Assembly (NCBI RefSeq): GCF_014202225.1
Contig: NZ_JACHGE010000005.1
Coordinates: forward strand, 186,001-250,000
Direction of reading: 5' to 3'
DNA from: Algibacter amylolyticus
GTDB lineage: Bacteria; Bacteroidota; Bacteroidia; Flavobacteriales; Flavobacteriaceae
DNA: 64,000 bases
The position numbers and the translations under genes were made by a program. Of this stretch, positions 52,774-62,465 are shown piece by piece. Numbering within the stretch: the stretch's first letter is position 1; the number at the start of each line of letters is the position of its first letter. Under the pieces are notes generated by a model. It saw only the letters and a program-made list of their open reading frames with translations. It had not been told where the DNA came from and searched no databases.

Positions 52774-53787
52774 CTAACGGAAACCAAAATTAACACCTAC
52801 AGAAAACGAGTCGAATTCCGATACATGGTATTCTGCATTAAGTCTGAAAAAACCTAACTTTAATTTTGTTCCTATAGTACCTCTAACAGCTGCAACATCG
52901 CTTGATATTGAAAACGGATCTACAATTGGATCTGATGACACAGGTCCGTTAGTTACAATATAGGTACCTAACAAATCAGATTCTGAGGTTCCTTTAATAT
53001 AGCCTAAACCACCATAAAAATTTATTACTGGTAATTTGGTAGATGCTATTAATTGAAACAACCAGGTGTTTGTATTGTTTTCTATACTTTGATCGTTACC
53101 ATCAATTCCTGACGATTCTGTTAAATCGTAAGCAGCATCAATATGTGTATAAGCCACTAAACCTGAAACTGCCACTGGCAACAATTTATCTGCTGGCAAC
53201 CAATTGGTAAACTCTACTTGTAAACCACCACCATACATGCTTAATGAAACATCGTCGGTTTCTATTTTAGGAACAAAACGTCCTTTTATTTCAATACCTT
53301 TTCCTAAACCTAAAGCGCCTTGTAAAAATGCGGTAGGCAATAAATTACCACTACCTTCACCTATACCTGATGGCAATTCAATTCTTTCTGTTTGATTACC
53401 AAATATTGGATCATCATATTCAACTTCAACAAAAACCGCTGGATCATTTTCTCCTAAAACAGAAGCAACCATTTGTGACGACGGTCCTGTTTCAAAAGAA
53501 ACATTTTGATAATCGTCTGTATTTAAATTAAACATTTTATTTTCATCTTTCACCGAAGCCGCATTAACAATAACAGAAATCTCGAAACCGCCTAAAGGTT
53601 TAGCAACTGCTGTATTAAACCAGTTGGCATTCATACTATGCATTAAGCCATTAGTTCCTGGTGCTAAATAATCGTTAGCAAAACGTTCGGCATCTTCAAC
53701 ACCGGCGGCTAATAAAGCATCAATATCTTGTGCTTTTGAAGTAATTGTTACAAAACAGAGTAACATAAGTAAGGATACTTTTTTCAT
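52774..53787 (-). CDS. DUF6588-type outer-membrane β-barrel protein
   Basis: The 337-residue product has a signal peptide (1-19), an N-terminal helix with DIDALLAAGVEDAERFANDY, a conserved GLMHSMNANWFNTA and alternating strands ending in an aromatic-arginine terminus (VGVNFGFR) typical of outer-membrane barrels. The family has no known function. It is unlinked to the FecR system upstream; a 95-bp gap separates them. Confidence 0.82.
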   Translation of the reverse strand: MKKVSLLMLLCFVTITSKAQDIDALLAAGVEDAERFANDYLAPGTNGLMHSMNANWFNTAVAKPLGGFEISVIVNAASVKDENKMFNLNTDDYQNVSFETGPSSQMVASVLGENDPAVFVEVEYDDPIFGNQTERIELPSGIGEGSGNLLPTAFLQGALGLGKGIEIKGRFVPKIETDDVSLSMYGGGLQVEFTNWLPADKLLPVAVSGLVAYTHIDAAYDLTESSGIDGNDQSIENNTNTWLFQLIASTKLPVINFYGGLGYIKGTSESDLLGTYIVTNGPVSSDPIVDPFSISSDVAAVRGTIGTKLKLGFFRLNAEYHVSEFDSFSVGVNFGFR

Positions 53788-53882: not shown

Positions 53883-56429
53883 CTAAAAATTACATCTAAA
53901 GCTAATATTTGGGGTAAGCCCTAGCGATTTATTTTCAATTTTAATCGCTGCATCAGCATTGTTTGGATCTACCTCATAGTAGGTATTTATAATATTCTTT
54001 CTATTTAATAAATTAATAACGCCTATTCTTACTGAAGATTTTACAGTTTTTATAGCGTTAAAAGAATAACTAAGCGAAGCATCTAAACGGATAAAATCAT
54101 CTTGATTTTCACCATTAGGGGTATCATAATTCACATAAATATTATTACCGTCCTGAACGGTTTCATTAGCCTCTACTGGTTTTGTAAAGGGTTGTCCAGA
54201 ACGCCAAATACCTCCTGCAGATACTTTTAAATTTTTAATTACATCATAATTTAATGCTAACGAAACAGAATGCCGTATATCTACATTATTAGGAAATATA
54301 GATGGTGTAAGCGTTTTAAATTCATAATCATTTATGCTGTAGGTATAACTTAACCAAGTACTATATTTTGCTGCTGTTTTATTAATTAGAAACTCAACAC
54401 CTTTCGCATCATAGCTTCCTGTAGCATTTAAATATTGAAAATTATTGTAAAACCCTTGATTAGAAACCGTAATACCATCGACCGTTTTGTAAAAACCTTC
54501 AACATCTACAATCAAATTATTATGACTATACTCAAAACCAAAAGCGGCTTGTTTACTTTCTGAAATAGGGATAGATTCATTATTAGCCAAAATCCATCTT
54601 CGGTTTTCCACCCCTAAAAAATCATCTTGAAAATCAATTATTTGAGTAGCCGATTGGTTTTTAAACTCACCTTGCAGTTTTAAAGCAAATTGGTTTGATA
54701 ACTTTTGCCTCACATTTAAACGCGGCTCAATAAGAAGCTTATTAAACTTTTGAAAATAATTACCCCTTACTCCTATTCTTAAATACGTATTGTCTTTATT
54801 ATATTCTATTTCGCCAAAAATCGCATGATTTAGTAGAACATCTTTTTTAGTTTTATTGTAGGCAGGCGCACTTACCTCTGTACTATTTAAAATACCTATT
54901 TCACTAAATTGATAACCATTTAATACATTAAAAGCGTCATTAATTTTAAAATTAGTTTTTAGTTTTATACCTGTTTCTAAAACCTCGTTTGCTTGGGTTA
55001 ATTTTTGATCTGTTTCTATTCTGTAATCCACCGCATCCACATTATATTTAGAATAGAAAGCTGTAAAATCTGTTGAAAATCGCGAAGTCCATTTACCGTT
55101 CCAACTCGCCCCAAAACCTAAATTTTCTTGTTTTAAATTACTTGTTTTAGCTTCAGACTGATTCTCACTATTGGTGAAACTTTCTGTATAATCTAAATTA
55201 TTATATATGCCAATTACGTTAGCTCTAACTTTATGATTTTCATTTAAATCGAAAAGCAGTTTTGCTGTATAATCGTAAAACACAAAATCTGACGACCGAT
55301 TACTCTCGGTTATATTATCGCTATTGGTTGTGAGTTCGCTATCTTGAAAACTTCGCTCAAAATAATTATCATACGTAGGTGTATTTAACATATCTGTAAA
55401 CGAACGCCTGCCAGAAATATGAAGTGCTAATTTTTTACTCAATGGTATTTTAAGAAACGCATCGGCATGAATTAAATTTGCTCCAAATCCGCCCGAAACC
55501 TTATCGTCTATTTTATTTTTAGTAGACATAGTTATGGTGCTTGAAACCCCATCGCTAAACTCGCTAGATGTTCCGTTTTTTGTAACCACAACCTTATCGG
55601 TTAAATAAGGATTATAGGCAGAAATGAGTCCGAAAAAATGCCCCGAATGATACATTTTAATATGATCCCAAAGTATTAAATTTTGGTCGTTAGTACCGCC
55701 ACGAACATTAATATTAGCAATACTTTCGTCTACACTTTCAACACCGGGTAAAGCTTGAATGGATTGTAGAATATCCGGTTCTATTAGCCCTGGAAGAATT
55801 CCGAATTTCTCAGTATTTAAAACCGTGCTTCCATCAATATACTTTTGCAAACCAGTAGTTAAATACTTTTCAATTAATATTTGATTTAAAGCTTCATTCT
55901 GCTCAACCATAGCTATAGTTTTACAGTCTTCATTTAAAAAAAGCAACTCTTTTACAGCTAACACTTGTGCTTTAAAACCCAAAAAGGAGATTATTAATTG
56001 CTCATTTATGCCTACATTTTCAAGCCGAAATGCGCCATCATCATTTGCTATAACACCTTTAGTGGTATTTTGTATTAAAACTGAAGCCCCAAAAAGTGGT
56101 TCTTTATCAGTTTCAGAAATTAAAACCCCACAAACAGTTACTTTTTTTTCTATTGTAGAAATCGTTATGTAACGCTCGTTTAAAAACTTAAAATTAAGAA
56201 TGGTTTCTTTATTAAGATGTTTAATAATAGTTTCTAGAGCATCTGTTTCTTGAGGTTTATTAACCAAAATCGAGCTAATTTCATTTAGCGAATACGAAAA
56301 CTTAACATCAAACTTTCCCTCTAAATTTACAATAAGATTGGATAGTTCTATTTTTTCTTGAGCCTGTATAGCAAAAGAAAAACTAAACACCATTAAAAGT
56401 AAAGCGACTAAAGGTTTATTTAGATTCAT
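53883..56429 (-). CDS. TonB-dependent receptor with STN signalling domain (FecA-like)
   Basis: The 848-residue protein has a signal peptide (1-23), an STN-type domain (about 25-95), a CarboxypepD_reg-like domain (about 98-180), a plug (about 195-310, with ALPGVESVDESIANINVRGGTNDQ) and a barrel ending TPNISFRCNF. Its 5' end overlaps the FecR gene by 14 bp, so the two are coupled. The STN domain should contact the FecR C-terminus when substrate binds. The substrate is not deducible; the His-rich regulon protein at 62004 makes a metal complex one possibility. Confidence 0.94.
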   Translation of the reverse strand: MNLNKPLVALLLMVFSFSFAIQAQEKIELSNLIVNLEGKFDVKFSYSLNEISSILVNKPQETDALETIIKHLNKETILNFKFLNERYITISTIEKKVTVCGVLISETDKEPLFGASVLIQNTTKGVIANDDGAFRLENVGINEQLIISFLGFKAQVLAVKELLFLNEDCKTIAMVEQNEALNQILIEKYLTTGLQKYIDGSTVLNTEKFGILPGLIEPDILQSIQALPGVESVDESIANINVRGGTNDQNLILWDHIKMYHSGHFFGLISAYNPYLTDKVVVTKNGTSSEFSDGVSSTITMSTKNKIDDKVSGGFGANLIHADAFLKIPLSKKLALHISGRRSFTDMLNTPTYDNYFERSFQDSELTTNSDNITESNRSSDFVFYDYTAKLLFDLNENHKVRANVIGIYNNLDYTESFTNSENQSEAKTSNLKQENLGFGASWNGKWTSRFSTDFTAFYSKYNVDAVDYRIETDQKLTQANEVLETGIKLKTNFKINDAFNVLNGYQFSEIGILNSTEVSAPAYNKTKKDVLLNHAIFGEIEYNKDNTYLRIGVRGNYFQKFNKLLIEPRLNVRQKLSNQFALKLQGEFKNQSATQIIDFQDDFLGVENRRWILANNESIPISESKQAAFGFEYSHNNLIVDVEGFYKTVDGITVSNQGFYNNFQYLNATGSYDAKGVEFLINKTAAKYSTWLSYTYSINDYEFKTLTPSIFPNNVDIRHSVSLALNYDVIKNLKVSAGGIWRSGQPFTKPVEANETVQDGNNIYVNYDTPNGENQDDFIRLDASLSYSFNAIKTVKSSVRIGVINLLNRKNIINTYYEVDPNNADAAIKIENKSLGLTPNISFRCNF

Positions 56430-57330
56430 AGTTATAAAACTCCACTTTTTTACCGTTTATTTTATAGCTTAACTTTAAAGGAATAGTTACAGATTGTAAC
56501 GCTATATTTTTATCGGAATGCGTAAAACTACCTGAAAACAACTCCGATGTATTAACACCTTCTGTATTAATTTGAATATCGTATTGCGCTTCCAACTCAG
56601 CAATAACTTGCCAAAGTGGTACATTATCAAAACTAGATTCTTTGGCTAACCACGACGGGCTTTTGGCGTTAAAATCTTTAATATCTACAACCTCACCATC
56701 AACTACTCTAAAGGTTTTACCCGGTTTTAAAATAACTTCACCTTGATTACTTGTAACACTTACAGAACCTTCATAACAGGCAACTTCAAAATACTTATCG
56801 CGTTGCTTTACATTAAACTGAGTACCTAGCACTTGTATAAATCCGGCGCTGGTTTGCACTGTAAATTTCTCGCCCTTGGTTACCTTAAAAAAGGCTTCTC
56901 CTTTTAACTCAAGAGACCTGTTAGATGCCCATTCTTTTTTGTTATACGATAATTTAGACTGTGCATTTAATATAACCTCGGAGTCATCAGGTAAATTAAA
57001 AGTTTCAGTTTGGGCTATTTGCGTTTCAAAGGAGTTTACATTATTAAAGAATAGAAAATAAGACGATGTTAATAGCACCACCAAAACAGCAGCAATTTTC
57101 ATAAACGTTTTAAAGTTTAAAGAAATTACCTTAGGCGCTTCCTTAACAAAGGTCCTTTTCTTAAAGTCTGCCAACGCTTGTTCTGCATTTACTTTTGGTG
57201 CTTCTAATTGTTTAGCATAAAACCCTGTTTTTTCTAAAACCGAAAAATCTTCGTCTGGATACAAGTTCTTAATCTCTTCGGCAGACAGCTCTCCGTTAAA
57301 CCACCTTAATATGTCTTGTTCTTTATTCAT
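56416..57330 (-). CDS. FecR-family anti-sigma/sensor protein
   Basis: I prefer the ATG at 57330 (MNKEQDILRWFNGELSAEEI) to an in-frame TTG at 57348, because the ECF promoter at 57352 would leave almost no leader for the latter. The product, about 304 residues, has an N-terminal anti-sigma part, one transmembrane helix (about 82-97, IAAVLVVLLTSSYFLFF), a FecR domain (about 105-205, with FNLPDDSEVILNAQSKLSYN) and a C-terminal STN-binding part. It keeps the sigma factor at 57390 inactive until the receptor is occupied. Confidence 0.93.
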   Translation of the reverse strand: MNKEQDILRWFNGELSAEEIKNLYPDEDFSVLEKTGFYAKQLEAPKVNAEQALADFKKRTFVKEAPKVISLNFKTFMKIAAVLVVLLTSSYFLFFNNVNSFETQIAQTETFNLPDDSEVILNAQSKLSYNKKEWASNRSLELKGEAFFKVTKGEKFTVQTSAGFIQVLGTQFNVKQRDKYFEVACYEGSVSVTSNQGEVILKPGKTFRVVDGEVVDIKDFNAKSPSWLAKESSFDNVPLWQVIAELEAQYDIQINTEGVNTSELFSGSFTHSDKNIALQSVTIPLKLSYKINGKKVEFYNYESK

Positions 57331-57351: not shown

Positions 57352-57379
57352 TAAGACACCTATATATTAGTTTACCCTA
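57352..57379 (-). promoter_or_regulatory. ECF-type promoter before fecR
   Basis: Minus-strand TTAGGGTAA-N12-GTGTCTTA lies between the sigma stop and the fecR start. It matches the elements at 58021 and 61927 in both boxes and in spacing, so the anti-sigma and receptor genes are probably driven by the sigma factor they control. Confidence 0.7.
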
Positions 57380-57389
57380 ACGTTTAAGT

Positions 57390-57911
57390 TCAAAATTTTA
57401 CTTCTTCAATCTTATTACGCAGTATTTTTAGAGCGCCAGACATCCGTTTTTCAACGGTTTTTTGAGAAACTCCAAGTATTTCGGCTATTTCTCTATATTT
57501 TTTATCTTCTATTCTATTCAATAAAAAAACTTCTCGCTGCTCGTTACTTAAATCGGCAATTACGCTTTGTAACTTCATTTTAAATTCATCTTCCTCTAAC
57601 AAATATTCCGGACTTAAATCCGTTCTATCCATATAAGGTGCTTCTTTTGCGTAACTCATAACCACCTTGTTATGTCGTATAGTATTTAAAAATAAATTAT
57701 TGACTGTAGTAAATAAATATGTTTTTGCTTTTGTAAAATCTATTTTAGAACAGTTTTCCCATATTTTTGCAAAAGCATCTTGCACTAAATCTAATGAAGC
57801 AGCAGAATCGCCACATTTATAAAATGCAAAATTATTAACAGACTGAATATGTTTTAAATAAAAAGAGTTGAAGCTAGACTCTTCACATAAATTAGGTTTG
57901 GGGCCGCTCAT
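57390..57911 (-). CDS. ECF-type RNA polymerase sigma factor (FecI-like)
   Basis: I start at the ATG at 57911 (MSGPKPNLCEESSF); an upstream in-frame ATG would add 20 hydrophobic residues not found in the family. The product, about 173 residues, has σ2 (about 15-75, with DLVQDAFAKIWEN) and σ4 (about 110-165, with LSNEQREVFLLNRIEDKKYREIAEILGVSQKTV in the usual order). It is followed by fecR and the receptor. A housekeeping -7 box at 57936 precedes it, so it is made constitutively and released by signalling. Confidence 0.95.
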   Translation of the reverse strand: MSGPKPNLCEESSFNSFYLKHIQSVNNFAFYKCGDSAASLDLVQDAFAKIWENCSKIDFTKAKTYLFTTVNNLFLNTIRHNKVVMSYAKEAPYMDRTDLSPEYLLEEDEFKMKLQSVIADLSNEQREVFLLNRIEDKKYREIAEILGVSQKTVEKRMSGALKILRNKIEEVKF

Positions 57912-57935
57912 ATATTTAAGATCATTTATTTGAAA

Positions 57936-57943
57936 CAAAAATA
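57936..57943 (-). promoter_or_regulatory. -7 element of the ECF sigma gene
   Basis: TATTTTTG on the minus strand matches TAnnTTTG exactly and lies about 25 bp before the start at 57911. It differs from the ECF promoter, separating sigma synthesis from the regulon. Confidence 0.5.
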
Positions 57944-58020
57944 TAACAAAATAAACTAACAGATAACACATTAATAAATAGTGAGTTATATTTTATTTCA
58001 AATTATTTTAAAAAAAACAG

Positions 58021-58048
58021 TAGGGTAATTTATAAGTTAAGAGTCTTA
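58021..58048 (+). promoter_or_regulatory. ECF-type promoter before the repeat lipoprotein
   Basis: TAGGGTAA-N12-GAGTCTTA matches the fecR promoter and the element at 61927, differing by one base in the -10 box. It lies 64 bp before the lipoprotein start and faces away from the sigma operon. Confidence 0.7.
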
Positions 58049-58112
58049 TATACAGAAAGCGTAAAAAATCGCTATGAAAAAGAAATTTATAAATATCCAA
58101 AAAATTAAAATC

Positions 58113-59165
58113 ATGAAACATTTAAAATTTTTAACTGCAACCCTAATAGTATCTATTTTATCCTTTACCTCATGTCAAGATGAAATTGATAGCGAAAACG
58201 GAAACCGAGAAAACACAAATAGCGCAGCATCGCCAACTGCAAATAATTTAGAACGCTCCTCTATGTACGATGGTAGTTTTGATGATTTTTTAGATGGCGT
58301 ATCTTGTTCATCTATATTACTACCCGTTACTGCAACAATCAACAATACCGAAATTACAATCATTAACGAATCTCAATACAACTTAGTTTTAAATATTCTT
58401 GGAGAATTTACTAATGACGATGATAGTATTGAACTTCAATTCCCTTTCTCGGTAAGACTTAGTAATTATACCGAAGTGGAAATAACAAATCAAACGGAGT
58501 ATGATGCCGTTATAAACGCTTGCGAAACTGCCGAAAATGAGCTTAAAAACGCCATTAACTGTATAGACATTAATTTCCCTATAACCATTTTAACTTTCGA
58601 TTTAAACGTGGAGCAAACAGGAAGTATTGTTATAGAATCTGAACAACAATTATATACCTACATGAACAACTTTGATGACAATACATTGTTTTCTGTAAAC
58701 TATCCAATTACAGCTACTTTAAATAACGACACTGTTATTGAAATTACTAGCGATATGGATTTACAGGCTAGTATTACCGAATGTTTAGGTACAGATGAAA
58801 CGATGGCTGAAGCCGAAGAAAATGCTCTTGAGTTAGAGGCTATTTTATTAGAAAGTAAGTTTAAAGTAGAATCTCTTGTCTCTGCTGGTGTAGATTCTGC
58901 TAACGAATTTGCCGATTACACCATAGATTTTGCAAACAATTTAACTTGTACTGCAGAAAATACAGTAAACGCAACTATCCAAGATATTGAAGGCACTTAC
59001 GAAGTTGCTTCAGAACTTGAAGTATTCTTATCCTTAACTTTTTCTGGGAATGCAACATTTGAATTATTAAATAACACTTGGGAAGTAACAAGCTATTCAA
59101 ACAACACAATTAGCCTACAAAGCTCAACAAATACCGCAATAACTCTAGTACTAAATAAAATCTAA
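58113..59165 (+). CDS. Secreted lipoprotein with internal repeats
   Basis: I start at the ATG at 58113, where the lipoprotein signal begins (lipobox FTSC, Cys about residue 21); 13 more in-frame codons lie upstream. The product, about 350 residues, contains repeated units opening with LPVTATINNTEITI, FPFSVRLSNYTEVEI, FPITILTFDLN and YPITATLNNDTVIEI, each about 60-75 residues, several ending in a cysteine. A helical segment (about 235-275) and a C-terminal β domain follow. Its divergent ECF promoter links it to the receptor system. Function unknown. Confidence 0.8.
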   Translation: MKHLKFLTATLIVSILSFTSCQDEIDSENGNRENTNSAASPTANNLERSSMYDGSFDDFLDGVSCSSILLPVTATINNTEITIINESQYNLVLNILGEFTNDDDSIELQFPFSVRLSNYTEVEITNQTEYDAVINACETAENELKNAINCIDINFPITILTFDLNVEQTGSIVIESEQQLYTYMNNFDDNTLFSVNYPITATLNNDTVIEITSDMDLQASITECLGTDETMAEAEENALELEAILLESKFKVESLVSAGVDSANEFADYTIDFANNLTCTAENTVNATIQDIEGTYEVASELEVFLSLTFSGNATFELLNNTWEVTSYSNNTISLQSSTNTAITLVLNKI

Positions 59166-59202
59166 AACTAGACAAGTATTTGTTGCGTATGTTATGGTAA
59201 AG

Positions 59203-59235
59203 CAGCTACCTTCTCCCAAAGGGTAGCTGTTTTTA
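59203..59235 (+). terminator. Terminator of the repeat lipoprotein gene
   Basis: CAGCTACC and GGTAGCTG pair around a TTCTCCCAAAG loop and are followed by TTTTT. It lies just upstream of the next start (59252), where it could also act as an attenuator. Confidence 0.85.
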
Positions 59236-59251
59236 ACAAAAAAATTATAAA

Positions 59252-60034
59252 ATGAAATATAGAGCATTAATAGTAATTGTAGTTTTAACCCTCGTTTTTG
59301 GATGTTCTAAAGACGAATCTAGCACAACTGAAGAAGATCAAATTTTTAACATTGATAAAAATTTAAACCGCCAAACAACTGGAAGTTCGGCAAACGATTT
59401 GTTATCGGACGCTGCTTTTAAAAGCATGGTTATAGAATTAGTTTATGTTGAAGGTTTTGAACCGAACCAAACTACTATTGATAATTTTATTTCATTTTTA
59501 AATAACAGAACATTTAAACCAAATGGCATAACCGTTGAAAAACGAGAAATCGCATCTCCTGGTAAAGACACTTATACTATTAACGACATTGCAGATATAG
59601 AAAAAGCAGAACGCACGCTATATAACACTGTCGATAAAATTGCGGTTTGGGCCCTTTTTATTGATGGTAAATCCGATAAAGATTCTGGCTCTAGTGTTGT
59701 ATTAGGAACAGCTTATTGGAACACGTCTTTTGTTATTTTTGAAGAAACCCTTCATGGTTTTAGCAACAGTACTTTTGAACCAAATAGAGCCTTGCTAGAA
59801 ACCACAGTTATTAATCATGAATTCGGGCATATTTTAGGACTTACCAATTTAGGAAGCACCATGCAAGAAGATCATGAAGACGAAGAACACGAAAAACATT
59901 GCAATGAAGAAAGCTGTTTAATGTATTGGGCTGCAGAATCTGGCGCAAACATTTCAAACATGGTAAATATGAGTGCCGCACCTCAACTAGATGCGCAATG
60001 TATTGCCGATTTACAGGCCAACGGCGGTAAATAA
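59252..60034 (+). CDS. Zinc-metallopeptidase-like lipoprotein
   Basis: The 260-residue protein has a lipoprotein signal (lipobox VFGC, Cys about residue 18) and a zincin core with HEFGHILGLTN, i.e. HExxHxxGxxN; metzincins normally have His or Asp at the last position. A Met-turn-like ESCLMYWAAESG follows after a His- and acid-rich stretch (MQEDHEDEEHEKHC). It may be active with another third ligand, or use the histidine-rich insert. It is probably cotranscribed with the β-barrel gene 31 bp downstream. Confidence 0.82.
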   Translation: MKYRALIVIVVLTLVFGCSKDESSTTEEDQIFNIDKNLNRQTTGSSANDLLSDAAFKSMVIELVYVEGFEPNQTTIDNFISFLNNRTFKPNGITVEKREIASPGKDTYTINDIADIEKAERTLYNTVDKIAVWALFIDGKSDKDSGSSVVLGTAYWNTSFVIFEETLHGFSNSTFEPNRALLETTVINHEFGHILGLTNLGSTMQEDHEDEEHEKHCNEESCLMYWAAESGANISNMVNMSAAPQLDAQCIADLQANGGK

Positions 60035-60065
60035 AACATTTTATTCACACTTAAATTTTAATATA

Positions 60066-60650
60066 ATGAGAACTAAATTTATAACTTTAGTAGTAACCCT
60101 ATGTGCTATTTTTAGCATAAACGCACAAGACAAACACACCTCTAACACAGGTATAAAACTAGGATACAACCTTGCAGCCGTTAGTTTTGATGGCGAAACA
60201 GAAACCGGACAACGCCATAGTTTTCAGGGAGGGTTTTATTCTGAATCCTTTTTAAATCAAGCTGTAGCCTTACAAATTGAGCTATTATACTCGCAACAAG
60301 GCTACGAGCTAAAAGATGACGGTGGCACATTCACCCAAAAATTAGATTATATCAACCTACCCTTAATGCTTAAAATATATCCAATTAATAGTTTCTTTTT
60401 AGAAGCTGGACCTCAAGTTGGCTATGCTATTTCTCATAAAGAAGAATTTGATAGTAGCTTTGGCTTCTTTGATACTACCCAAGAGTTTGAACCTAATAGT
60501 TTTGATTATGGTGTTAATGTTGGTGCTGGTTTTAAAACTGATTCTGGTTTTAACATAGGCGCTAGATATACCCATGGCTTAGGTGAAATATATGAAGACA
60601 ATTCGCCTCAAAATAGAGTACTTCAATTTTATTTAGGTTTTAACTTTTAA
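60066..60650 (+). CDS. Outer-membrane β-barrel protein (PorT-like fold)
   Basis: I start at the ATG at 60066 because the signal peptide (MRTKFITLVVTLCAIFSINAQ) begins there. The mature part, about 175 residues, has the repeated strand pattern of the outer-membrane β-barrel_2 family: GIKLGYNLAAVSF, YSQQGYELKD, LDYINLPLMLKIYP, GVNVGAGFKT and the C-terminal FYLGFNF. No specific function can be assigned. Confidence 0.88.
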   Translation: MRTKFITLVVTLCAIFSINAQDKHTSNTGIKLGYNLAAVSFDGETETGQRHSFQGGFYSESFLNQAVALQIELLYSQQGYELKDDGGTFTQKLDYINLPLMLKIYPINSFFLEAGPQVGYAISHKEEFDSSFGFFDTTQEFEPNSFDYGVNVGAGFKTDSGFNIGARYTHGLGEIYEDNSPQNRVLQFYLGFNF

Positions 60651-60803
60651 ACAAACTAATGCTTATCTCAATTGTTTTTTAACAAAATAACCGATTGATA
60701 ATCTGACACTTAAACTCAACAATAAAATTATTTAAAAAAAACCAAAACCGACCTAATTTCAATTTCGTAGGTATTGGTACAAAACAAAAAAAACACATTT
60801 ATT

Positions 60804-61844
60804 ATGAAACCATTAAAATCAAAACAATTTTTAGCAACAATAGCCCTAACATCAGTATTAGCATTCTCTTGTAGTAATGATGACGATGATAACAACATGG
60901 ATATGGGCCCAACTAGCTCTACCACGATTTACGCATCAAACAATTCCGATGGTAACGTTACTATATACGATGTAACCGATTCGGCAAATATTACAACAAA
61001 AACATTAATTACATCATCTACGGCTGCCGATGGTATTTACTTTGATAGCAACTCCGATGCTGTAATTCAAGCATCTCGATCTGGTTTAGGTCTTGAAGGG
61101 TTTACAAACATCTCTGCGCTTTTAAATAATGCTACTGTAAATGCAGACCTTAACGGAACTAACGATATGTCTAGCCCTAGAGAACTTGCCGTTAACGGAA
61201 ACACATATGTTGTTGCAGATAATGCCGATGTAGATGGCGACGCAAATACACCAGATGGTAAATTATTTATCTATACGCGTAGTGGAAATTCTTTTACTCT
61301 TAGAAACACCATTACAACCGATTTTAAACTTTGGGGTATCACCTTTAAAGACAATGATTTATATGCTGTTGTAGATGCAACAAACGAACTTGCCGTTTAT
61401 ACAGATTTTGCATCTAACACAAGCGATGCTACTTTAAGTGCTTCTAAAAGAATTGTTATAGAAGGTATTGTTAGAACTCATGGTTTAACCTACGATAGCG
61501 CTTCAGATGTTATGGTAATGACGGATATTGCTGCTGCTACCAACGGACAAGATGATGGTGCTTTTCATATTATAGAAAACTTTACAAGTAAATTTAACAG
61601 TACTGCAAACGGGGCAACCTTAGCTGCATCACAACAAACAAGAGTATCTGGAGCTGCAACGCTATTAGGTAACCCTGTAGATGTTGCTTACGATGCCGAT
61701 ACGCAAACTGTATTTATTGCCGAAGCCGGTAATGGTGGTGGTAGAATTTTAGCCTTTAACAACATAGGTTCTGGCGGAAACATTACACCTGCATTTAATA
61801 ACAGTTTAGCTTCAGCATCTTCAGTATTTATTTCTAAAAACTAA
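60804..61844 (+). CDS. β-propeller-like lipoprotein
   Basis: I start at the ATG at 60804, where a lipoprotein signal begins (lipobox AFSC, Cys about residue 23). The 346-residue product is Asp/Asn/Thr-rich with repeated β units such as TIYASNNSDGNVTIYDVTD, NDLYAVVDATNELAVYTDF and VAYDADTQTVFIAEAGNGGG, which look like propeller blades. The sequence after the cysteine is acidic, typical of surface-exposed lipoproteins in Bacteroidota. Function unknown. A terminator follows at 61871. Confidence 0.8.
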   Translation: MKPLKSKQFLATIALTSVLAFSCSNDDDDNNMDMGPTSSTTIYASNNSDGNVTIYDVTDSANITTKTLITSSTAADGIYFDSNSDAVIQASRSGLGLEGFTNISALLNNATVNADLNGTNDMSSPRELAVNGNTYVVADNADVDGDANTPDGKLFIYTRSGNSFTLRNTITTDFKLWGITFKDNDLYAVVDATNELAVYTDFASNTSDATLSASKRIVIEGIVRTHGLTYDSASDVMVMTDIAAATNGQDDGAFHIIENFTSKFNSTANGATLAASQQTRVSGAATLLGNPVDVAYDADTQTVFIAEAGNGGGRILAFNNIGSGGNITPAFNNSLASASSVFISKN

Positions 61845-61870
61845 AATATTAATTAGATTAATCCTCACTA

Positions 61871-61897
61871 AAGAGCACTTTCTAGTGCTCTTTTTTA
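61871..61897 (+). terminator. Terminator of the β-propeller lipoprotein gene
   Basis: AAGAGCACT and AGTGCTCTT pair around TTCT and are followed by a T run. It insulates the ECF promoter at 61927. Confidence 0.93.
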
Positions 61898-61926
61898 TTT
61901 AATATAATATCTATTAAAAAAAAGCG

Positions 61927-61954
61927 TAGGGTAAACTATTTGTTAGGTGTCTTA
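61927..61954 (+). promoter_or_regulatory. ECF-type promoter before the His/Tyr-rich protein
   Basis: TAGGGTAA-N12-GTGTCTTA is essentially identical to the fecR promoter at 57352, even in the flanking AC TA and TGAAAGC bases. It ends 49 bp before the start at 62004. Confidence 0.7.
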
Positions 61955-62003: not shown

Positions 62004-62465
62004 ATGAAAATATTTAAAACATTAGTATTCATTTTAATTATCAGTTTTTCATTTACAATACAGGCTCAAGAAGTTGAAACTGAAAACAAAACGACTGTAG
62101 ATAAAAAATCATACTACCAAAAGCGCGCTGCAGAAGACGCTAAATTCGAACAGCAGTTTAAAGCAGAAAATGAAGAAGAAAGCGAAGACTTTTGGCAAGA
62201 ACAAAAAGCTTACGAAAAAGAATTAAAGAAAAAAGACAGACAAGCCTACAAGGCTTATATGAAAGGTAAAAGAGATGCCTATGCAGAGCATTATGAGCAT
62301 TGCGATAACCATTGTCATCATAACGCACATTACTACTCACACGCATCGTTTTACTATTACGGATACGACGGGTATTATTATAACAGACAACCACAAAGAA
62401 GAAGCACAATAAACACCCGAGTAAGTTTGGGTGCACCAAGAGTACGCGTAGGTTTAGGAATATAA
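62004..62465 (+). CDS. Secreted His/Cys/Tyr-rich protein of the ECF regulon
   Basis: The 153-residue product has a signal peptide (1-21), a highly charged helical part (about 30-92) and a C-terminal part with HYEHCDNHCHHNAHYYSH followed by a run of Tyr and Gly, then a basic end. The histidines and cysteines would suit metal binding. No family is recognised. An ECF promoter shared with fecR suggests that it is an output of the same signal. Confidence 0.78.
   Translation: MKIFKTLVFILIISFSFTIQAQEVETENKTTVDKKSYYQKRAAEDAKFEQQFKAENEEESEDFWQEQKAYEKELKKKDRQAYKAYMKGKRDAYAEHYEHCDNHCHHNAHYYSHASFYYYGYDGYYYNRQPQRRSTINTRVSLGAPRVRVGLGI

Follow-up and report, generated by a model that had tools for sequence, protein, structure and literature searches.

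The DNA analysed here, called the window, is the 64,000-nucleotide stretch at positions 186,001 to 250,000 of contig NZ_JACHGE010000005.1 of Algibacter amylolyticus, a member of the Flavobacteriaceae. It contains a cassette encoding an extracytoplasmic function (ECF) sigma factor, a FecR-type regulator and a TonB-dependent receptor on the minus strand and, divergently on the plus strand, a repeat lipoprotein, a protease-like protein and a beta-barrel protein; a gene for a His/Tyr-rich protein lies further along the plus strand. Three sites in this region carry the same two-box sequence. Sites and genes are given below in the order of their coordinates.

53883..56429, minus strand: TonB-dependent receptor with STN-like N-terminal domain, CarbopepD (NTE) domain and plug (PF13715 and PF07715 above cut-off)
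56416..57330, minus strand: FecR-type sigma regulator, 304 amino acids (PF04773 at 69.5 bits and PF16344 at 30 bits, both above cut-off)
57352..57379, minus strand: predicted sigma-dependent promoter of the fecR-receptor operon (exact motif, located between the stop of sigma and the start of fecR)
57390..57911, minus strand: ECF sigma factor, FecI-like, 173 amino acids (Pfam Sigma70_r2, PF04542, and Sigma70_r4_2, PF08281, above cut-off)
57936..57943, minus strand: TATTTTTG, housekeeping-type -7 box (TAnnTTTG) before the sigma gene (from the sequence)
58021..58048, plus strand: predicted sigma-dependent promoter of the divergent lipoprotein gene, possibly also of the protease-like and barrel genes behind it (exact motif)
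58113..59165, plus strand: repeat lipoprotein with beta-beta-beta-alpha repeats and a C-terminal barrel-like domain (open reading frame, alignment and model)
59252..60034, plus strand: metzincin-like putative zinc protease, a lipoprotein (HExxHxxGL ... HC-x4-CLM, alignment)
60066..60650, plus strand: outer-membrane beta-barrel protein (PF13568, 87.3 bits)
61927..61954, plus strand: predicted sigma-dependent promoter of the His/Tyr-rich protein gene (exact motif)
62004..62465, plus strand: His/Tyr-rich protein with signal peptide, 153 amino acids (open reading frame)

Three exact motif sites around the sigma gene

The original prediction had described three near-identical promoters at these places, with common boxes separated by exactly 12 bp and, in two cases, common flanking bases. 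In a motif scan of the 64 kb window all three sites match TAGGGTAA-N12-G[TA]GTCTTA with 0 mismatches, on the strands expected; the flanking bases common to two of the three are visible in the window sequence, and the window-wide scan at up to 3 mismatches gave no site besides these. Three hits at this tolerance are by themselves unremarkable (shuffled sequences gave a mean of 1.19, and 11 of 100 reached 3), but three without any mismatch are noteworthy. In the complete genome of the organism (4,351,189 bases), the only exact copies are these three, all inside 4.6 kb, followed by one match with 1 mismatch at C2:125481 (a TTGTCTTA variant) and two with 2 mismatches. When up to 3 mismatches are allowed, 73 matches are counted in the genome against 70 for a reversed-pattern control, so that weak matches carry no meaning. 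The distance from the end of the site to the start codon is 21 bases for fecR (57330), 64 for the lipoprotein gene (58113) and 49 for the His/Tyr-rich gene (62004). The lipoprotein start at 58113 was chosen because it fits the signal peptide and the relatives; an earlier ATG at 58074 lies 25 bases from the site.

The sigma factor passes the family model TIGR02985 (Sig70_bacteroi1) with 127.2 bits at a cut-off of 126.4 and is 98% identical to the sigma factor of Algibacter pectinivorans (locus L109), a close relative. An assignment to FecI proper, the iron-citrate sigma factor (NCBIfam NF041727), was rejected, as the score of 52.9 bits falls below the equivalog cut-off of 260.

Conservation of the sites and co-occurrence with the sigma gene

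The comparison of motif and sigma gene across related genomes that had been proposed with the original prediction was run on 149 genomes of the family, including that of A. amylolyticus (genomes, contigs and loci carry the prefixes G, C and L). A close sigma homologue was defined by 63% identity or more, a cut placed at a visible gap, the next sigma factors having 56% or less; the motif was relaxed to TAGGGTAA-N13-DGTCTTA, a form chosen after relatives had been inspected. A close sigma homologue is present in 15 of the 149 genomes, and the relaxed motif occurs at 46 places in 17 genomes, compared with 2 places for the reversed pattern. All 15 genomes with the close homologue contain the motif, against 2 of the 134 without it (Fisher p 9e-19, kinship ignored), and in 14 of the 15 a match is found at the sigma locus itself. 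In G044, the only further species sampled from the genus, motif and close sigma factor are both missing. A motif that is widespread and unrelated to this sigma gene, the outcome named beforehand as speaking against the link, was not seen among these genomes.

The same figures bear on a different reading, in which the sites are genuine ECF promoters but serve several ECF sigma factors with overlapping specificity, and the regulon is shared and not owned by the sigma factor of 57390. Regulon overlap of this kind has been proposed for Flavobacterium psychrophilum (PMC9723704); moreover, distant homologues use the same -35 box, two of them, G045 and G008:C49, carry a site of the GTC type on the lipoprotein or divergent side, and a first look at the genome of A. 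amylolyticus gave 22 candidate sigma relatives. However, only 1 of these 22 passes E <= 1e-20, which indicates that no close competitor sigma is encoded there, and the motif is rare where the close homologue is missing, G044 lacking both. A shared regulon is therefore considered unlikely.

The position of the sites was compared in 81 orthologous loci, namely the window and the best 80 of 95 sigma relatives in named genomes, with sigma factors 63-98% identical; these loci overlap partly with the 149-genome sample, and many belong to closely related Flavobacterium species. Allowing up to 1 mismatch, the relaxed motif lies within about 140 bases after the sigma stop in 79 of the 81 loci, and the sites of the other two are at +227 and +255. 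A site precedes fecR in every locus, 16-23 bases ahead of the start codon. This constant placement, with the sites oriented toward the target gene, argues against a transcription-factor binding site in place of a sigma promoter, two readings that motif matching by itself cannot separate. Furthermore, the two boxes keep a fixed spacing, the -10 position carries the GTC that is a feature of many ECF promoters, and no other conserved regulator gene was found in the cassette over the 81 loci; a transcription factor as the reader of the sites is thus very improbable.

A scoring matrix was made from the fecR sites only (where it scores 23.9 or more), so that the other promoters had no part in it. 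Upstream of the divergent lipoprotein gene it detects 91 sites, spread over 81/81 loci (lowest best score 16.2). His/Tyr-rich homologues are preceded by 27 sites in as many loci, including all 26 with a clustered open reading frame, and a further site lies before the barrel gene of L109. The matrix gives a total of 213 matches in 1.30 Mb, compared with 6 for the reversed matrix. Of the 13 matches that remain, nine are the second member of a tandem pair upstream of the lipoprotein gene; the other four, all weak (12.1-17.4), lie inside sigma genes (three, one of them antisense) and inside fecR (one). A chance origin of the sites is ruled out by the whole-genome and reversed-pattern controls. The possibility that the sites are functionless look-alikes, left by shared ancestry of the neighbouring DNA or by recent duplication, could draw on the flanking bases common to two of them. 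It is contradicted by the pattern of change across sites, where spacer bases vary and boxes are constant, and also by the retention of the sites down to 63% sigma identity (L188) and by their presence with the His/Tyr-rich gene at unlinked places, and its probability appears negligible.

Very probably, the sigma factor encoded at 57390 activates a small and conserved gene set, the products of which are secreted and surface proteins, by way of a single common promoter sequence. The original prediction had placed the anti-sigma and receptor genes and two secreted outputs under this sigma factor, an assignment supported by the co-occurrence, by the sites in all 81 loci and by the sites before His/Tyr-rich genes elsewhere. 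That this particular protein reads the sites is what we infer from these patterns, and the sigma-promoter link is strong for evidence drawn from sequence only.

Several observations weigh against this assignment. In G008 an exact match stands beside a second sigma gene (53% identity) and the orthologous locus has two sites with 1 mismatch, while G045, without a close homologue, has a site before a similar lipoprotein gene beside a 43% sigma homologue. G119 has one site and no close sigma homologue; behind this site and those of G110:C2 and G115:C85, no open reading frame of more than 25 amino acids starts with ATG within 300 bases. The fecR site of G131 reads GTTATA instead of GTCTTA. The 81 loci share ancestry, so that their counts are not independent, and 80 of them were picked as the best of 95 sigma relatives. 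Finally, the Pfam model STN gave no match to the receptor, the signalling domain of which rests on mostly sub-threshold FecR_C matches and a Foldseek match with E 0.13.

Proposed circuit, predicted targets and cassette proteins

We regard it as highly likely that the locus is a cell-surface signalling cassette of the FecI-FecR-FecA type with its own sigma-specific regulon. In the mechanism proposed, a ligand would bind the TonB-dependent receptor, the STN-like N-terminal domain of which would pass a signal to the inner-membrane protein FecR, which would in turn free or activate the sigma factor. Together with RNA polymerase, the sigma factor would recognise GTAGGGTAA-N12-NDGTCTTA, leading to transcription of fecR and the receptor gene, of the divergent repeat lipoprotein gene and probably also the protease-like and barrel genes behind it, of the His/Tyr-rich gene and, elsewhere in this genome, of a gene for a small membrane/coiled-coil protein. 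The extents of these operons are predicted. The sigma gene itself would be transcribed from a housekeeping-type promoter, outside its own regulon, with feedback on its regulator and receptor.

An ordinary -7 box had been noted for the sigma gene, and the box TAnnTTTG is indeed present; within 150 bases upstream of the sigma gene it occurs in 39 of the 81 loci (12.1 expected). No sense-orientation ECF site was found upstream of the sigma gene in any of them (0/81), and the -33 box is not enriched there (1/81, 1.6 expected). Since the sigma gene lacks a site of its own, the feedback would reach fecR and the receptor gene and not the sigma gene. The original prediction had spoken of feedback on the sigma factor's own inhibitor. 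The feedback part agrees with the site before fecR in all loci. In E. coli, however, fecIR is described as not autoregulated and FecR as also required for FecI activity (PMC9249621), so that FecR is a putative inhibitor at most and the feedback may or may not be negative.

The predicted targets extend beyond the cassette. His/Tyr-rich homologues are encoded in 16 of the 149 family genomes, and in all 11 sigma-bearing genomes among them a site (at most 1 mismatch) precedes the gene; in G024 and G131 both gene and site lie far from the sigma gene. The five such genomes without a close sigma homologue have a site with 2 mismatches (G002), a GTAGGGT...TTGTTAT variant with 5 mismatches (G056) or none (G120, G086 and G030). 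In the genome of A. amylolyticus, at least one further target is likely, namely the gene at C2:125545 for a 146-amino-acid membrane/coiled-coil protein, which stands behind an unlinked site in the stretch C2:125481-125982 (L004, 1501-2005). This protein gave no family match above cut-off, and the sole other homologue found, in G024, is also encoded behind a site. In G124 a site precedes the gene for a protein that by eye resembles a secreted protease of M4 type.

In 14 loci tandem sites, 150-169 bases apart, precede the lipoprotein gene, and 12 of the intervals encode a hydrophobic peptide of 30-43 amino acids; the window has a single site on the lipoprotein side and no tandem. The intervals in question are found as follows:

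L110, L113, L114, L123, L136, L137, L141, L143, L149, L151, L157 and L177: micro-ORF (small open reading frame) between tandem sites upstream of the lipoprotein gene

Seven of the 12 micro-ORFs begin 26-30 bases downstream of the first site of the pair; L139 and L142 depart from the pattern. The micro-ORF behind its own predicted sigma site is a candidate gene for a membrane microprotein.

The cassette itself is well conserved over the 81 loci, with sigma and fecR genes in 81, receptor, lipoprotein and protease genes in 80 each and the barrel gene in 71. The order barrel-protease-lipoprotein / sigma-fecR-receptor is kept in most; L136 lacks the lipoprotein-side genes (contig end), the receptor of L111 is unclustered, and protease and barrel genes are swapped in L146 and L167. 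The neighbourhoods differ, with gyrB-like and malate-dehydrogenase-like genes in some loci and a phosphomutase-like gene in others (named by eye), and for this reason the six genes look like one functional unit. Two nearby genes were rejected as members. The DUF6588 gene (52774-53787) has homologues in 28 of the 81 loci, those with gyrB- or mdh-like neighbours, and the lipoprotein gene at 60804-61844, between the barrel and His/Tyr-rich genes, was noticed, apart from the window, only in A. pectinivorans (L109). In the latter species the barrel gene has its own site (score 30.6), 2701 bases before the sigma stop, which is absent in the window. In L146 (Flavobacteriaceae bacterium MAR_2010_72) a second sigma-fecR-receptor set adjoins the cassette.

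The plug of the receptor scores 24.0 bits (cut-off 23.9). The N-terminal part of the receptor exceeds the FecR_C cut-off only in L145 (26.7 against 24.4) and stays below it in the window, L118, L188 and L153; such matches fit, because the C-terminal part of PupR contains an STN fold (PMC7186176). For the model of this N-terminal part (mean pLDDT 86) the stronger match is to NTE domains and covers the second domain; behind it comes a likeness to 1zzv, the signalling domain of FecA (E 0.13, TM 0.71 by target length). A SusC/RagA receptor (TIGR04056) was rejected at 47.3 bits, with a cut-off of 368.25.

The lipoprotein has no Pfam match above cut-off. Its model (mean pLDDT 66) contains about four beta-beta-beta-alpha units and a C-terminal barrel; this C-terminal domain (58839-59162) weakly resembles lipocalins and potempin E (Foldseek matches 8ehc and 8ehd, E 0.08-0.13, TM 0.64-0.70 by target length). 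Potempin E is a protease inhibitor. A profile search of the PDB with the C-terminus returned neither 8ehc nor 8ehd; its matches were 40 residues of a flagellin-type chain (E 0.0002, with no single stretch passing by itself) and two others with E above 0.3. The comparison, made on a model of middling confidence, may serve as a lead only. The gene that follows, next to this potempin E-like resemblance, encodes the metzincin-like protease; a bond between the two proteins would be speculation. HExxHxxGL and HC-x4-CLM are both kept in 80/80 protease homologues of these loci. The protein passes no family cut-off: Archaemetzincin (NF033823) was rejected at 19.4 bits (cut-off 145), with a zinc-site-like motif present, and the protease alignment, used as a profile against the PDB, had a single match, weak and unrelated (E 0.37).

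The wider sigma family and known signalling systems

Most of the sampled distant sigma homologues keep the -35 box GTAGGGT and have GTT in place of GTC in the -10 box, with exceptions. Among 15 loci of 3.5 kb with sigma factors 47-54% identical (L046-L060), 13 have TAGGG and a -10 box after the sigma stop, in all 13 cases with GTT (none was found after the sigma stop in L055 and L057), and the divergent site, present in 8 of the 15, also has GTT. L077 (56%) has GTT on both sides. The pattern is broken by L045 (63%; GTT before fecR and GTC on the divergent side), L093 (43%; both sides GTC), L080 (48%; site absent) and the mixed locus G008:C49 (L088; 53%), which is GTT-like before fecR and has GTC on the divergent side. 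The profile of the window lipoprotein has a match in 13 of 18 distinct distant-sigma loci; the protease profile found no match in the distant-sigma loci, of which only six, of 20 kb, reach far enough to show one.

Residue 79 of the sigma factor is K or R in 96/96 proteins of the GTC class and A in 13/15 of the GTT class, some places being counted twice. Counterexamples are two loci with K, namely L046, where both sites are GTT, and L045, where the fecR site is GTT and the lipoprotein-side one GTC, as well as L088 (A with GTT before fecR and GTC divergently), and by a one-residue measure residues 65, 45, 1 and 128 separate the classes better. These loci may represent a Flavobacteriaceae family of surface-signalling circuits, in each of which a FecI-like sigma factor, a FecR and an STN-like receptor are coupled to their own beta-beta-beta-alpha repeat lipoprotein and not to an importer. 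The circuits would have the -35 box GTAGGGT in common and a largely class-specific -10 box (GTC or GTT), which may depend in part on whether position 79 holds a basic residue or alanine; by eye this position falls in sigma region 2.4. The class of the window would combine the lipoprotein with a putative zinc protease, possibly as inhibitor and enzyme, and some species would add the 30-43-amino-acid membrane microprotein under its own sigma site. As one joint claim this picture is possible but doubtful, and its strength is reduced by the mixed locus G008:C49.

No open-access paper describing the motif or the cassette in its title or the start of its abstract was found in a search that mostly left out subscription journals; among the listed open-access papers with similar letter strings, no title concerns Bacteroidetes promoters. 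Few ECF promoters are defined in the Bacteroidetes, and B. thetaiotaomicron encodes 50 ECF sigma factors (PMC12596196). The locus offers a sharp promoter sequence, a specific sigma factor and a conserved list of predicted targets, and the existence of species with and without the system allows a direct test of the link between sigma factor and promoter. Judging by the outputs, FecIR-type signalling may in flavobacteria control surface proteins instead of nutrient import.

Among known systems, TIGR02985 supplies a family name only, with no promoter sequence attached in the sources examined. SM6 of Flavobacterium psychrophilum and PM2 of Bacteroides thetaiotaomicron are, like the present motif, alternative promoter motifs of the phylum and suspected targets of alternative sigma factors (PMC9723704; PMC7366714). 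As compared by description and not base by base, SM6 has a CGT box and is associated with type IX secretion system (T9SS) genes, and PM2 is near-palindromic and linked to oxidative stress. A further close likeness is to the FecI-FecR-FecA system of E. coli and to PupI-PupR-PupB, described as combining an ECF sigma factor, a FecR regulator and a TonB receptor with an N-terminal signalling domain (PMC9249621; PMC7186176). In FecI-FecR-FecA the receptor gene is under the sigma factor and the sigma gene is not autoregulated (PMC9249621; PMC7186176), an arrangement that the DNA sequence predicts for the present locus as well. Unlike in that system, fecR too, besides the receptor gene, lies behind a predicted sigma site, the promoter boxes are different, and the predicted outputs are a repeat lipoprotein, a protease-like protein and a barrel protein, with no visible importer.

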